Assembly (NCBI RefSeq): GCF_030580935.1
Contig: NZ_JAUQOM010000001.1
Location: forward strand, 620,001-684,000
Length of the DNA stretch: 64,000 nucleotides
Origin: Sphingobium cyanobacteriorum
Lineage (GTDB): Bacteria; Pseudomonadota; Alphaproteobacteria; Sphingomonadales; Sphingomonadaceae
Direction of reading: 5' to 3'
Part shown: piece by piece, positions 2,534 through 61,635 of the stretch
How positions within the stretch are numbered: position 1 is the first letter of the stretch
Layout of the letters: the number at the start of each line of letters is the position of its first letter
Notes under the pieces: generated by a model
The model's database searches: none
The model's input: the letters and a program-made list of their open reading frames with translations, nothing else
Told to the model about the DNA's origin: nothing
Translations under genes and position numbers: made by a program

Positions 2534-2601
2534 AAGAAGGGTGGGGAGTGGACTGATTGGTTTACAGGAGCAATTGTTGTAGAGCAGACATAAAATCCAC
2601 C

Positions 2602-2633
2602 GTCACCCCAGCGAAGGCTGGGGTCTCAGGCGG
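2602..2633 (+). repeat. left inverted palindromic repeat of GIY-YIG cassette
   Basis: A 32-nt element beginning GTCACCCCAGCGAAGG and ending TCTCAGGCGG. It has an internal 7-bp stem (CCCCAGC/GCTGGGG) and matches the reverse complement of 2944-2975 at 31 of 32 positions. It belongs to the same general type as the GTCATCCCCGCGAAGGCGGG repeats elsewhere in the window. Confidence 0.8.
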
Positions 2634-2652
2634 CGGCGCGTTACAGTAGGGC

Positions 2653-2943
2653 ATGGCGCGAGGCGGCTACACATATATCATGACAAATAAGGCAAGGGGC
2701 GTTCTCTATATCGGCGTCACAGCCGACATCGCGGCGCGTGCCGAACAACATCGAAACGGCACTGGCTCGGCCTTTTGCAGGAAATACGGGCTGACGCGCC
2801 TCGTTCTGGTGGAGCCACATGATGACATCATGCTCGCCATCGCCCGCGAGAAGGCCCTCAAAGCCTGGAAGCGCGAATGGAAAATCCGGCTTGTAGAAGA
2901 GAGTAATCCCGATTGGCGCGATATGACGGACCTTATCCTCTGA
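2653..2943 (+). CDS. small GIY-YIG domain nuclease
   Basis: A 96-residue single-domain GIY-YIG protein. The eponymous motifs are YTYIM near residue 6 and YIGVTADI near residue 19; a conserved HRNG segment follows near residue 33. Family members (UPF0213/YhbQ-like) have a DNA-strand-cleavage fold without an attached DNA-binding domain; the biological substrate is unknown. The start ATG at 2653 gives MARGGYTYIM, usual for the family. The gene sits alone between guaB and ftsH, bracketed by inverted repeats, which suggests nuclease and repeat travel or act together. The domain call is secure; a role in repeat spread is conjecture. Confidence 0.85.
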   Translation: MARGGYTYIMTNKARGVLYIGVTADIAARAEQHRNGTGSAFCRKYGLTRLVLVEPHDDIMLAIAREKALKAWKREWKIRLVEESNPDWRDMTDLIL

Positions 2944-2975
2944 CCGCCTGAGACCCCAGCGTTCGCTGGGGTGAC
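2944..2975 (-). repeat. right inverted palindromic repeat of GIY-YIG cassette
   Basis: The inverted partner of 2602-2633, differing at one position in the hairpin loop (GCGAAC versus GCGAAG in the same orientation). It begins immediately after the GIY-YIG stop codon. It may also serve as that gene's transcription terminator, although no T-tract follows. Confidence 0.8.
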
Positions 2976-3038
2976 GATAAGAAGAATGGCCGCTTCAGGA
3001 CAATGGCACATTTTGTTTTGAAAGCAAAAAATGGTCGT

Positions 3039-3308
3039 TCAGCGCCTGTCGAACGCGACCGTTTCGCTTGCTGCAAAAGCCGGGTTAGCGACGGCTTCAT
3101 ACCAATCGGCACGAAAGCCCGGCAGCGCGGACAGGTGCGCGATCAGGTTATCCCAACCTTTGGCTTCCTCATGGAATGACGAAACACGGCCAGCCACCTC
3201 GACATCGCAGCAGATCAGGTCAGTCGTGATCTCGTCCCGTTTGTAGAATACGACAGCATCGATATCTGCCAACGGCAGTTGTGCAATGACGTCTGGTGTT
3301 ATCATCAT
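3039..3308 (-). CDS. hypothetical protein, acidic, 89 aa
   Basis: Not recognised beyond a vague memory of similar small proteins in sphingomonads. The preferred start is the ATG pair at 3308/3305 (MMITPDVIAQLPLADIDAVVFY). An upstream start would add 53 residues of poor, unfolded-looking sequence. The product is soluble, with an alternating pattern (VVFYKRDEITTDLICCDVEV) suggesting beta strands, then a helix with conserved-looking aromatics and WDNLIAHLSALPGF. Local GC is visibly lower than in the flanking guaB and ftsH genes, so it may have arrived with the neighbouring GIY-YIG cassette. No function is proposed. Confidence 0.6.
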   Translation of the reverse strand: MMITPDVIAQLPLADIDAVVFYKRDEITTDLICCDVEVAGRVSSFHEEAKGWDNLIAHLSALPGFRADWYEAVANPAFAASETVAFDRR

Positions 3309-3463
3309 CACAGCGGTTTGCCCTGCTGAACGAACGTCCGCAATCAGGAACCTGCAAGGCACTCCTAAACGGCAATTTTTGATCGTTTCAAAACATTCAG
3401 CGACGCCCAACGAAAAAGGGCGCAGCCTCAGCCACGCCCCTTTCTCGCACCTCACCGAATCCC

Positions 3464-5410
3464 TCAAGCCCCGGCAGGCGACGCCTCGCCGAACGGGCCC
3501 TTGCGTTTGCGGATGCGCGGGATCGAGGAACCCGCCGCCGGGATGACCGATGGCTTGATCGTCGTCCCGTCGTCGCGGGTGATCTCGCCCTTTTCCAGCA
3601 GGGCCTTGATCTCGTCGCCGCTCAACGTCTCATATTCCAGCAGCGCGTTGGCGAGCAGGTGGAGCTGGTCCTCATGCCCTTTGAGCAATTCCTGCGCGCG
3701 GGCATAGCCCTGCTCCACCAGGCCACGGATTTCCGCGTCGATCAGCTTGGCCGTCTCGTCCGACATATGGACACGCTGGCTCTGCGAATAGCCCAGGAAC
3801 GTCTCGCCCTGCTGCTCTTCATATTGCAGCGGCCCCAGCTTGTCGGACATGCCCCATTGCGTGACCATGTCGCGGGCCAGCTTGGTGGCGTACTGGATAT
3901 CGCCCGACGCGCCGCTCGATACCTTGTCGTATCCGAAGATGATCTCCTCGGCCACGCGCCCGCCCATGGCGACGGCCATGTTCGCGTGCATCTTGTCGCG
4001 GTGATAGCTGTAGCTGTCGCGTTCCGGCAAGCGCATCACCATGCCCAGCGCGCGGCCGCGCGGGATGATCGTCGCCTTGTGGATCGGGTCCGACGCGGGT
4101 TCATGGACAGCGATGATCGCATGGCCAGCCTCATGATAGGCGGTCATCTTCTTTTCATCGTCGGTCATGACCATAGAGCGGCGTTCCGCGCCCATCATCA
4201 CCTTGTCCTTGGCCGCTTCGAACTCGTCCATCGCGACCAGCCGCTTGCCGCGCCGCGCCGCCATCAATGCAGCTTCGTTGACCAGGTTGGCCAGGTCCGC
4301 GCCGGAAAAGCCGGGCGTCCCGCGCGCAATGACGCGCGGTTCGACATCGGGGGCCAGCGGCACCTTCTTCATGTGGACGGCCAAAATCTTCTCGCGCCCT
4401 TCGATATCGGGGCGGGGCACCACGACCTGACGGTCGAAGCGGCCCGGCCGCAGCAGCGCGGGGTCCAGCACGTCGGGGCGGTTGGTCGCCGCGACGATGA
4501 TGATGCCCTCATTCGCCTCGAACCCGTCCATTTCGACCAGCAACTGGTTCAGCGTCTGCTCGCGCTCGTCATTGCCATTGCCCAGGCCCGCGCCGCGATG
4601 GCGGCCGACCGCGTCGATTTCGTCGATGAACACGATGCAGGGCGCATTCTTCTTGGCCTGTTCGAACATGTCGCGCACGCGGCTCGCGCCGACGCCCACG
4701 AACATCTCGACAAAGTCGGAGCCGGAAATGGTGAAGAAGGGCACGCCCGCTTCCCCCGCGATCGCGCGGGCGAGCAGCGTCTTGCCGGTGCCGGGCGAGC
4801 CGACCAGCAGCGCGCCCTTGGGAATCTTGCCGCCCAGCCGCGCGAATTTCGTCGGGTCTTTCAGAAATTCGACGATTTCCTGCAATTCCTCGCGCGCTTC
4901 GTCGATGCCGGCAACGTCATCGAACGTCACCTTGCCATGCTTTTCGGTCAGCAGCTTGGCCTTCGACTTGCCGAAACCCATCGCGCCGCCCGCGCCGCCG
5001 CCCTTCTGCATCTGGCGCAGCACGAAGAAGGCGATGCCCAGGATCAGCAGGAAGGGCAGCGACTGGTAGAGCATGATCTGCCAGAAGCTCGGCCCTTCTT
5101 CGGCCTGCCCCGAATATTTGACGTTATAATCGTCCAGCAGGCCAGTCAGCCCCGGATCGTTGACCGGGACGGTGGTGAATTTCTGTCCGCTCGCCAATGT
5201 GCCGCTGATCTTGTCGGGCGCAATCGCCACGTCCTTGACCTGGCCTTCCTGCACCTTGGAACGGAATTCGGAATAGGCGATGCCGCTGCCGGCGACAGCG
5301 TTGGGATTGTTGAACAGCGACACGAACAGCAGCAGGGCGACGATCACGCCCGCCCATATCATCGCACTTTTGATCCAGGGGTTGCCCTGCGGGTCTTTAT
5401 CGTCGTTCAT
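3464..5410 (-). CDS. ftsH: ATP-dependent zinc metalloprotease FtsH
   Basis: Membrane-anchored AAA+ protease that degrades misfolded membrane proteins and regulators; it works as a hexamer with its catalytic part in the cytosol. The 648-residue protein has membrane segments at about 13-33 and 112-131. The Walker A motif GSPGTGKT is at 204-211, Walker B is FIDEIDA near 261, and RPGRFDRQ is the second region of homology. The zinc site HEAGH is at 426-430. GTG (5416) and ATG (5413) starts lie just upstream. The ATG at 5410 ([10 protein letters not shown]) is best spaced from the GAAAGAGAG ribosome-binding sequence. It ends the tilS-side run of minus-strand genes, as in many alphaproteobacteria. 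Confidence 0.96.
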
Positions 5411-24044: not shown

Positions 24045-24065
24045 TGGCGCTGGCCATGAAAAGCC

Positions 24066-24090
24066 GTCATCCCCGCGAAGGCGGGCCCCC
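24066..24090 (+). repeat. palindromic repeat (GTCATCCCCGCGAAGG type)
   Basis: A copy of the GTCATCCCCGCGAAGGCGGG repeat with a short internal stem (CCCGC/GCGGG), 22 bp after the SPFH stop. It is the same family as the 61556-61605 element and a cousin of the repeats flanking the GIY-YIG gene. A second, inverted arm is not evident here. Confidence 0.65.
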
Positions 24091-29669: not shown

Positions 29670-29689
29670 GTTCCCGCGCAGGCGGGAAC
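29670..29689. terminator. bidirectional hairpin between convergent genes
   Basis: GTTCCCGC (29670-29677) and GCGGGAAC (29682-29689) pair perfectly around a GCAG loop, between the DUF983 and thioesterase stops. It has no strong T-tract. It is of the same general CCCGC/GCGGG repeat type seen elsewhere in the window. Confidence 0.5.
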
Positions 29690-60801: not shown

Positions 60802-61635
60802 TCATGTCGCGAACGATCCCGCCAGCGACCCCATGGTCAGCGCCCAGCCATCCACCAGCACGAACAGCAGCAGCTTGAACGGCATCGATATGATCGTGGG
60901 CGACAGCATCATCATGCCCAGCGCCATCAGCGTGGACGCGACCACCAGGTCGATGATCAGGAAAGGCAGGAAGATCATGAAGCCGATCTGGAACGCGGTC
61001 TTGAGTTCGCTGGTCACGAACGCCGGCAACAGGATCGAGAAGGGAATATCGTCAGGCGTGCGGAAGGCCGGCGCCTTGGCCAGGCTCTGGAACAGCTTCA
61101 GGTCGCTTTCGCGGGTCTGCCTGGTCATGAATCCGTGCAGCACCTTGCCCGACCGGCCGACCGCCTCCTCGATGCTGATCTGCCCTTTGCCATAGGGGTC
61201 GAACGCCTGGGCATTGATCGCGTCGATCGCCGGGCGCATCACGAACAGCGACAGGAACAGGGCAAGGCCAACCAGCACCTGGTTGGGCGGCGTCTGTTGC
61301 AGGCCCAGCGCCTGGCGCAGCAGCGACAGGACGATGATGATGCGGGTGAAGCTGGTCATCATGAGCACGAGCGACGGCAACACCGTCAGCAGGCTCATCA
61401 GGATCAGGATTTGCAGGGACAGCGACATGGAGCGGCCGTCACCCGAAATCTGGCCCATCGCCCGGCTCAGCGCGCCGCCATTGTCGACCGGCGCGGCGGG
61501 CGCGGCCTGGGCAAAGGCGGGGATGGTGAAGATCAACGTCAGCACAACAACCAGCGTCATCCCCGCGAAGGCGGAGATCCATCTCCCTGCCTTCGCGGGG
61601 ATGACGATGTTTCGGGAATCAGCGCAGGCGGACAT
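60802..61635 (-). CDS. fliP: flagellar biosynthetic protein FliP with repeat-derived N-terminus
   Basis: Core export-gate protein. The canonical part starts [29 protein letters not shown], with [29 protein letters not shown]-like [14 protein letters not shown] and the C-terminal [11 protein letters not shown]. The preferred ATG 61635 overlaps fliO by 17 bp and has AAGG five nucleotides upstream. It gives 277 residues in which [10 protein letters not shown]...AFAGMT is translated from a palindromic repeat, followed by a signal peptide. The alternative ATG 61560, inside the repeat, gives 252 residues, nearer the usual length. In both cases the repeat-derived part should be removed with the signal peptide. 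Confidence 0.93.
61556..61605. repeat. palindromic repeat overlapping the fliP start
   Basis: Inverted arms of the GTCATCCCCGCGAAGGC type (61556-61572 and 61589-61605, perfect over 17 nt), with further pairing inside around a short centre. It is the same family as 24066. It contains the ATG at 61560 and lies within the 5' part of the fliP frame. Confidence 0.85.

Follow-up and report, generated by a model that had tools for sequence, protein, structure and literature searches.

A small GIY-YIG nuclease gene between inverted CGTC-tagged palindromes in Sphingobium cyanobacteriorum: a candidate enzyme for a known class of bacterial repeats

The window analysed here is a 64-kb stretch of Sphingobium cyanobacteriorum DNA (positions 620001-684000 of contig C1), near the beginning of which a short nuclease gene lies between two inverted palindromes. 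The features discussed below are as follows:

2653..2943, plus strand: GIY-YIG nuclease gene, 96 aa, single domain, PF01541 match
2601..2633, plus strand: upstream CGTC REP, with its head CGTC (2601-2604) pointing away from the gene, stem ACCCCAGC at 2605-2612, loop at 2613-2616, second stem at 2617-2624 and a tail to 2633
2944..2976, minus strand: downstream CGTC REP, an inverted copy, with its head GACG (2973-2976) pointing away from the gene
2539..3037, plus strand: repeated unit of this lineage, 94% identical to G000:C12:42335-42833 (contig C12 of the same genome)
24065..24088, plus strand: solitary CGTC REP of a different stem type (ATCCCCGC), outer stem degenerate
29670..29689, no strand assigned: GTTCCCGC-type palindrome, a type that also flanks a GIY-YIG paralogue at C12:406242
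61555..61606, no strand assigned: head-out CGTC REP dimer of the ATCCCCGC type, one arm imperfect

The open reading frame at 2653-2943 matches PF01541 (GIY-YIG) with 47.7 bits against a cut-off of 22.6, and this is its sole Pfam match. The two arms beside it (2601-2633 and 2944-2976) are inverted copies of 33 nt each, 97% complementary and separated by 310 nt, and each constitutes a complete hairpin composed of CGTC, stem ACCCCAGC, a 4-nt loop, stem GCTGGGGT and a tail facing the gene. The right arm directly follows the stop codon, and a 19-nt spacer lies between the left arm and the start codon. A first-pass annotation of this DNA had described a minimal GIY-YIG gene bracketed, with little spare DNA, by inverted palindromes of 32 nt, and had pointed to related repeats at 24066 and 61556. 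These descriptions were borne out, the second of the related repeats being the REP dimer at 61555-61606. When all inverted pairs in the window (at least 20 nt, less than 400 nt apart) were ranked, the arms came first of 27, and the only longer arms (38 and 35 nt) were merely 71% and 74% complementary. Moreover, the pattern GTCNNNCCNGC-N4-GCNGG occurs at four sites (both arms, 24066 and 61586) against 0.24 expected in the window, and none of 100 shuffles reached four. Chance as the origin of the inverted repeat was rejected on the basis of this rank and this excess. A second inverted pair, CGTCATTGCGAGCGTAGCGAAGCAATCCAT (2465-2533; 30 nt, 100%, 9-nt spacer), adjoins the unit; it starts with CGTC, has a CCA-like end, forms an imperfect palindrome, and recurs in the same genome and in the genus. 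On the other side, a stretch at 3039-3467 (minus strand, ORF of 142 aa) starts near the right end of the unit and is repeated elsewhere in two genomes (G167 and G168), perhaps as another dispersed element next to the unit.

The window repeats belong to a known class, the CGTC-tagged REPs defined by Di Nocera, De Gregorio and Rocco in 2013 (PMC3733652). According to that paper, these REPs have a CGTC head, a stem of 8-9 bp, a loop of 4-5 nt and mostly CCA tails; TGTC or CCTC may replace the head, the tail at the opposite end is unpaired, and AT pairs occupy the first two stem positions. They occur chiefly in Alphaproteobacteria, with the Neisseria dRS3 and the Rickettsia RPE-4/RPE-6 repeats included, and are intergenic, often paired and frequently near gene ends. 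Its authors find no dedicated enzyme for them and leave open whether they are relics or are moved by unknown transposases. The window arms, with CGTC at one end, an 8-bp stem and a 4-nt loop, agree with this class in head, stem length and loop; their tail is TCTCAGG and their stem starts with AC, and CCA tails and AT starts are common among relatives. The earlier suggestion of a new kind of repeat system does not hold for the repeats themselves, which were already known. What differs from the REPs of PMC3733652 is the GIY-YIG gene between cognate copies. In the open-access PMC literature, no link between GIY-YIG and REPs appeared among the matches listed, and no paper there combined GIY-YIG with 'repetitive extragenic palindromic' or with dRS3. 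The main text of RepRanger 2025 (PMC12306157), as far as it was accessible, contains no word starting with nuclease, transposase or RAYT.

The gene and its arms form part of a longer repeated unit (2539-3037), which overshoots each REP by about 61 bp. The first-pass annotation had captured the gene with its repeats and missed the genome-wide recurrence of the whole unit. One further complete copy (94%) is present on contig C12 of the same genome, and C45 and C5 contain copies with an internal deletion in which both palindromes are retained. Among 61 genus genomes compared, multiple copies were found in G149, G119, G131, G152 and G139; when aligned by eye, copies in G149, G119 and G139 have common ends 60-75 bp outside the REPs, and some of them carry stops or frameshifts. 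Several copies in G152 (L137-L139) are located at contig ends, so near-identical copies probably break this assembly and the copy numbers are underestimates. Another G152 stretch (L289, about 2115-2500) appears by eye to have unit-like ends and another interior without the GIY-YIG gene. Within the own genome, ACCCCAGC palindromes (up to 2 mismatches) occur at 26 places, compared with 2 for the reversed control pattern; 18 of the 26 are exact, and 8 of these 18 lie within the four unit copies. Two more small GIY-YIG paralogues are present, with palindromes GCTCCTGC/GCTCCGGC and GTTCCCGC beside them. The GTTCCCGC type (up to 2 mismatches) was detected at 50 places versus 19 for its control pattern, four of its palindromes being within about 205 bp of the paralogue that it flanks. 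One paralogue (L009, G000:C12:292284), apparently located between two 2-oxoacid dehydrogenase complex genes on our own reading, has an open frame with no ordinary in-frame start codon visible by eye near its beginning, and may be a decayed copy or a user of an unusual start codon.

Across 90 aligned family sequences (L016 and L029, which have internal stops, are left out), G21, R29, H33, E66, W76, N85 and W88 are invariant, and Y8 and Y19 are conserved at 98%. In a set of 30 sequences that includes the named genomes, Y19, G21, R29, H33 and E66 are invariant and N85 is present in at least 90%. The conserved residues fit what we take to be the catalytic set of the GIY-YIG fold. Six pairs were tried for dN/dS, three of which were of unequal length and gave no value; the three close pairs yielded about 0.13, 0.18 and 0.07, and purifying selection is evident in the pairs measured. 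The AlphaFold2 model of the window protein (mean pLDDT 93.9) has a GIY-YIG fold, whose closest solved counterpart is the UPF0213 protein 1zg2 (E 8.7e-4), alone in passing E 0.001, followed by Slx1 (best E 0.029); the closest solved sequences are also UPF0213 proteins (1zg2 and 1ywl). No PADLOC defence model matched the two proteins tried and no NCBIfam named family matched three proteins, and the candidate assignments to a defence gene and to a named family were rejected on these grounds.

To examine the occurrence of the palindromes beside relatives of the gene, hairpins were defined by a perfect stem of at least 8 and a loop of 3-7, and loci cut by a contig end (such as L250, with the gene at the very edge) were scored as misses on that side. 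The protein is present in 82 of 119 genomes of the taxonomic family, and 92 family loci from 69 genomes were used (30 automatic, 59 hand-picked among the matches listed and 3 from the own genome; L047 was left out), together with 61 loci of other families in the phylum, after removal of nine repeats of family genomes, and 37 loci from a contig search of named genomes, which include Planctomycetota, Chloroflexota, Actinomycetota and Bacteroidota. A hairpin was found within 120 bp of the gene at 82 of the 92 family loci (both sides at 59), at 38/61 phylum loci (both sides 20) and at 22/37 named loci (both sides 9). Within 100 bp, 58/92 nuclease genes have hairpins on both sides and 80/92 on any side, compared with 0/79 and 9/79 for control ORFs (at least 100 aa) of the same loci, and the far side of neighbouring genes has a hairpin in only 5 of 102 cases. 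Similar comparisons at 120 bp gave 46/70 (any) and 26/70 (both) against 12/66 and 2/66 controls in the phylum set with the nine family repeats included, and the named set, with its controls at 10/58 (any) and 0/58 (both), behaved in the same way. Hairpin density at the 92 loci amounts to 7.8/kb upstream and 8.9/kb downstream within 100 bp of the gene, and to 0.2-0.4/kb more than 200 bp downstream or 300 bp upstream. Relative to intergenic DNA more than 300 bp away, the density within 120 bp is 7.6-fold higher in the family (7.5 vs 0.99/kb), 8.8-fold in other families of the phylum (5.2 vs 0.59/kb) and 3.8-fold in the named genomes (4.8 vs 1.25/kb). The comparison of homologues with other genes that the first-pass annotation had proposed therefore came out in favour of its gene-repeat link, also outside the family of the host; homologues are not generally devoid of the repeats, nor are the repeats equally common beside the control genes.

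GTC/GAC-tagged hairpins lie beside the gene at 71/92 family, 32/61 phylum and 19/37 named loci; among the listed loci, stems starting with GCTCC or GTTCC have no evident CGTC tag. Of 99 loci with two-sided hairpins (some loci being repeated), 86 have loops of 4 or 5 nt in the left and the right hairpin alike. In the family, heads mostly point away from the gene, both upstream (57 outward, 11 inward, 13 untagged) and downstream (57, 15 and 14), as they do in the 70-locus phylum set (28/7/9 upstream and 25/16/11 downstream). This head-out rule was not seen in the named set (6/11/3 upstream and 9/8/5 downstream), where the gene is often flanked by REP dimers at either end (L229, L225 and L239 are examples). 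No perfect hairpin was present within 120 bp at 23/61 phylum and 15/37 named loci (about 40%). Both the mixed head orientation and the loci without a hairpin weigh against a nuclease dedicated to its own REPs, the reading preferred below.

The type of palindrome also corresponds to the nuclease. Where hairpins flank the gene at either end within 130 bp (93 distinct loci), the two stems of a locus agree at 0.863 of positions, a value reached by none of 5000 permutations, compared with 0.562 between loci; they are identical at 49 of the 93, with 3.4% expected between loci. On a nuclease tree in which many forks stay open, the proteins being short, the loop class (4 or 5 nt; 75 proteins) requires 4 changes against 20.0 after shuffling (minimum 15, n=300), and the stem core (66 proteins) 14 against 40.0 (minimum 33). 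Palindrome type thus tracks the nuclease tree, and paralogues in a single genome may differ in type, as do L015 (ATGCCAGC) and L046 (ACCCCGGG) of G071. Moreover, ACCCCGG REPs away from the sampled genes occur in 14 of 15 genomes with an ACCCCGG-type gene and in 21 of 104 others, and at least three such copies occur in 10/15 and 6/104, respectively; only sampled genes were typed, so the others may include untyped ACCCCGG genes. Ordinary terminators were rejected as an identity of the hairpins in view of the upstream hairpins and the cognate stem match.

Relatives of the gene with the same architecture occur in several phyla, so the link is not restricted to sphingomonads. A protein search of PLSDB gave 33 records, ten of which were examined. 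The gene has REPs of matching or near-matching type at either end in Novosphingobium aromaticivorans DSM 12444 (plasmid pNL2; GCCCCGTG) and in Sinorhizobium meliloti (ATCCTCGGG). It likewise lies between ATCCCCGC REP dimers in Azospirillum lipoferum, between ATTCCCGC REPs of the dRS3 type in Neisseria gonorrhoeae, between REPs ATTCCCGC and ATCCCCGC in Aeromonas caviae, and between ACCCCGGG REPs on two Sphingobium plasmids. CGTC REPs were also found near the gene in examples from Planctomycetota (L218, L233 and L239), Chloroflexota (L230) and Actinomycetota (L228), and no REP was seen at the gene itself in Rhizobium tumorigenes. In Planktothrix and Spirosoma, no perfect hairpin was detected, and longer GTCAT-type imperfect inverted repeats lie beside the gene (by eye); imperfect palindromes of the GTCATTCTGAG type accompany it in one cyanobacterium and on one Bacteroidota plasmid. 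On plasmid p1 of Planktothrix agardhii (L304), a relative of the gene bracketed by GTCATTCTGAG...GAAGAATCTC imperfect palindromes is located between an MmeI-type restriction enzyme and DISARM drmA. At the DNA level, no plasmid copy of the window unit was found in PLSDB, and no E. coli carriers were found with the Aeromonas unit as the query.

These observations point to a reading that we consider probable, namely that the unit is a small mobile module and its nuclease the dedicated enzyme of its own REP type. Most likely, it represents a non-homologous counterpart of the REP/RAYT system, whose GIY-YIG nuclease targets the cognate CGTC REP. Because relatives in several groups also have flanking palindromes, usually of one type on the left and right, the nuclease stands out as a strong candidate for the so far missing enzyme behind the spread of CGTC REPs. 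We infer that it cleaves or moves the REP, and the REPs could be the inverted ends of the element. The nuclease would recognise its REP as a hairpin or cruciform, like the related Slx1 on branched DNA, and would nick it at or near the CGTC head; host repair or replication may then copy the REP, and sometimes the whole unit, to another location. As hydrolases, GIY-YIG enzymes are not known to form a covalent intermediate with DNA; joining would then fall to the host, unlike in HUH transposases.

The comparison of relatives with and without the unit, which the first-pass annotation had advised, revealed filled and unfilled sites in three lineages. At the conserved site of the C12 copy, the own genome and G149 carry the unit, and 12-60 bp separate the aligned flanks in four relatives; other relatives have different DNA there, two of them with other REP pairs (L292 and L285; by eye), and spacers at the unfilled genus sites have diverged. 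In Azospirillum, the unit lies between sufB and sufC of the suf operon of A. lipoferum 4B, and three relatives (94.7-96.1% identity) have the suf site without it. Between fnrL and a regulator gene of Sphingobium, 7 of 11 replicons carry the unit and 4 do not (the alignment covered these 4 and 3 of the 7 filled ones). Among the latter four, TomTYG64 has one perfect double-headed palindrome of the same type at the site, TomTYG74 a degenerate one, TomTYG65 a different hairpin and TomTYG72 neither. In G575, the left flank with the unit is on one member of the contig pair C23/C1 and the unit with the right flank on the other, which is perhaps a rearrangement through recombination between two units. 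No target duplication was recognised by eye in the aligned genus copies and the filled and unfilled sites.

Such sites bear on a homing-type selfish gene, in which the nuclease would cut pre-existing REPs and the gene would be copied in, the REPs being its target and not its product. The same-type double-headed palindromes in two of the four gene-less Sphingobium replicons look as if the gene had been inserted within them, and GIY-YIG is known as the fold of homing enzymes. IS elements are also reported to use REPs as targets (PMC1525189). On the other hand, the short spacers of the three Azospirillum relatives and the four genus-mates contain no CGTC palindrome pair (by eye), which suggests that the REPs arrive together with the unit. 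Deletion between the two stems could equally have produced the double-headed allele, and in the 119 genomes such palindromes are rare (7 sites versus 175 single-headed with a CCNGC tail). This origin is therefore considered unlikely. Because of the same rarity, collapse of the unit to a double-headed palindrome was unsupported as the main source of REPs.

Co-occurrence in the phylum further supports the preferred reading of a nuclease dedicated to its REPs, with some limits. Among 398 phylum genomes, 104 have the gene (E<=1e-15), and one REP pattern reaches at least five copies in 44 of these 104 and in 26 of the 294 without it; the stratified odds ratio is 6.7, with broad strata that correct incompletely for phylogeny. 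The class stratum alone is weak (12/49 vs 6/67, odds ratio 3.3, p 0.036; p 0.2 for at least 10 copies), and 60 of the 104 carriers have fewer than five copies of that one pattern. The 26 REP-rich genomes without the gene show that REPs remain in genomes with no enzyme of this family; on rechecking with PF01541, 11 carry another small GIY-YIG gene, 14 have longer frames only (mostly UvrC-sized) and 1 has none. At the 12 loci of these other small GIY-YIG genes, a CGTC-type hairpin was nearby in only 2, so the link looks specific to this subfamily. A passive alternative is that the REPs are terminators or insulators, or simply gather in intergenic DNA around mobile genes, and that the nuclease serves repair or defence. 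Such REP-rich genomes without the gene speak for it; hairpins are able to end transcripts, and REPs are intergenic and often near gene ends (PMC3733652). This passive association is nonetheless quite improbable, given that neighbouring genes mostly have no hairpins, that hairpin density at the gene exceeds that elsewhere in intergenic DNA about 4-9-fold, that other small GIY-YIG genes mostly have no REPs, that the stems are cognate and co-vary with the protein, and that the two proteins tried had no PADLOC defence match.

The boundaries of the conserved DNA were also compared among 62 loci whose left and right REPs are tagged and head-out, which provided 58 pairs from different genomes with an alignment of at least 15 bp past the gene on both sides. 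In 52 of the 58, homology stops at each end no more than 10 bp from the outer CGTC edge (median overhang 0), and three pairs run more than 30 bp further (L019-L025, L076-L077 and L227-L241). Recent copies in the same genome reach further, 61-62 bp past the REPs for the window pair. Movement bounded by the palindromes does not account for this overshoot of about 60 bp, which points to flanking DNA being taken along during repair or to a role for other ends. An alternative in which an unrelated transposase recognises ends outside the palindromes and moves the unit in trans, as a non-autonomous element with the nuclease as cargo, would suit the common outer ends of the G149 and G119 copies, which have no evident terminal inverted repeat (by eye), and the G152 stretch with similar ends and a different interior, but is very improbable, since the block conserved between genomes stops at the CGTC heads, no solitary outer flank was seen among the 55 own-genome places listed (40 of 75 candidates scored), the unit contains no transposase gene and the palindrome type follows the nuclease.

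The unit resembles REP/RAYT systems (REPtrons and REPINs) in that a lone enzyme gene lies between inverted cognate palindromes, that numerous copies, both solitary and paired, are scattered over the genome, and that one genome has several enzyme-repeat pairs. The likeness noticed in the first-pass annotation fits with the cognate palindromes, dispersed single copies, repeated units, and filled and unfilled sites, and so does the difference in nuclease fold that it had stressed (PF01541 only and a GIY-YIG model). The tag is CGTC here and GTAG in REP/RAYT, and a GIY-YIG nuclease takes the place of the HUH tyrosine transposase (TnpA-REP, IS200/IS605 group); because the enzymes are unlike, the chemistry and origin differ. 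The nearest solved sequences are single-domain UPF0213 proteins, and the nearest folds are those of UPF0213 and, more weakly, of Slx1, which acts on branched DNA. We know of no repeat association for UPF0213 or Slx1, and the other small GIY-YIG genes differ from this subfamily in the general lack of REPs described above. GIY-YIG homing endonucleases share the catalytic domain, and a selfish spread via breaks is conceivable for both; unlike them, the window protein has no second DNA-binding domain in its 96 aa, and its gene lies between two complete palindromes.

On a wider scale, an independently evolved class of GIY-YIG/CGTC elements might be the source of CGTC REPs, including dRS3, in most carrying phyla, and perhaps of the GTCATTCTGAG-type palindromes too, a generalisation that we hold tentatively, at slightly below even chances. 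CGTC REPs are one of two large REP superfamilies, and the question of their enzyme is raised in PMC3733652; with a small, single-gene and biochemically tractable candidate, this question becomes directly testable. If the proposed role is true, unrelated nucleases gave rise to palindromic repeat systems on at least two occasions, and the spread of bacterial DNA would here be driven by a GIY-YIG hydrolase via host repair and not through strand transfer of its own.
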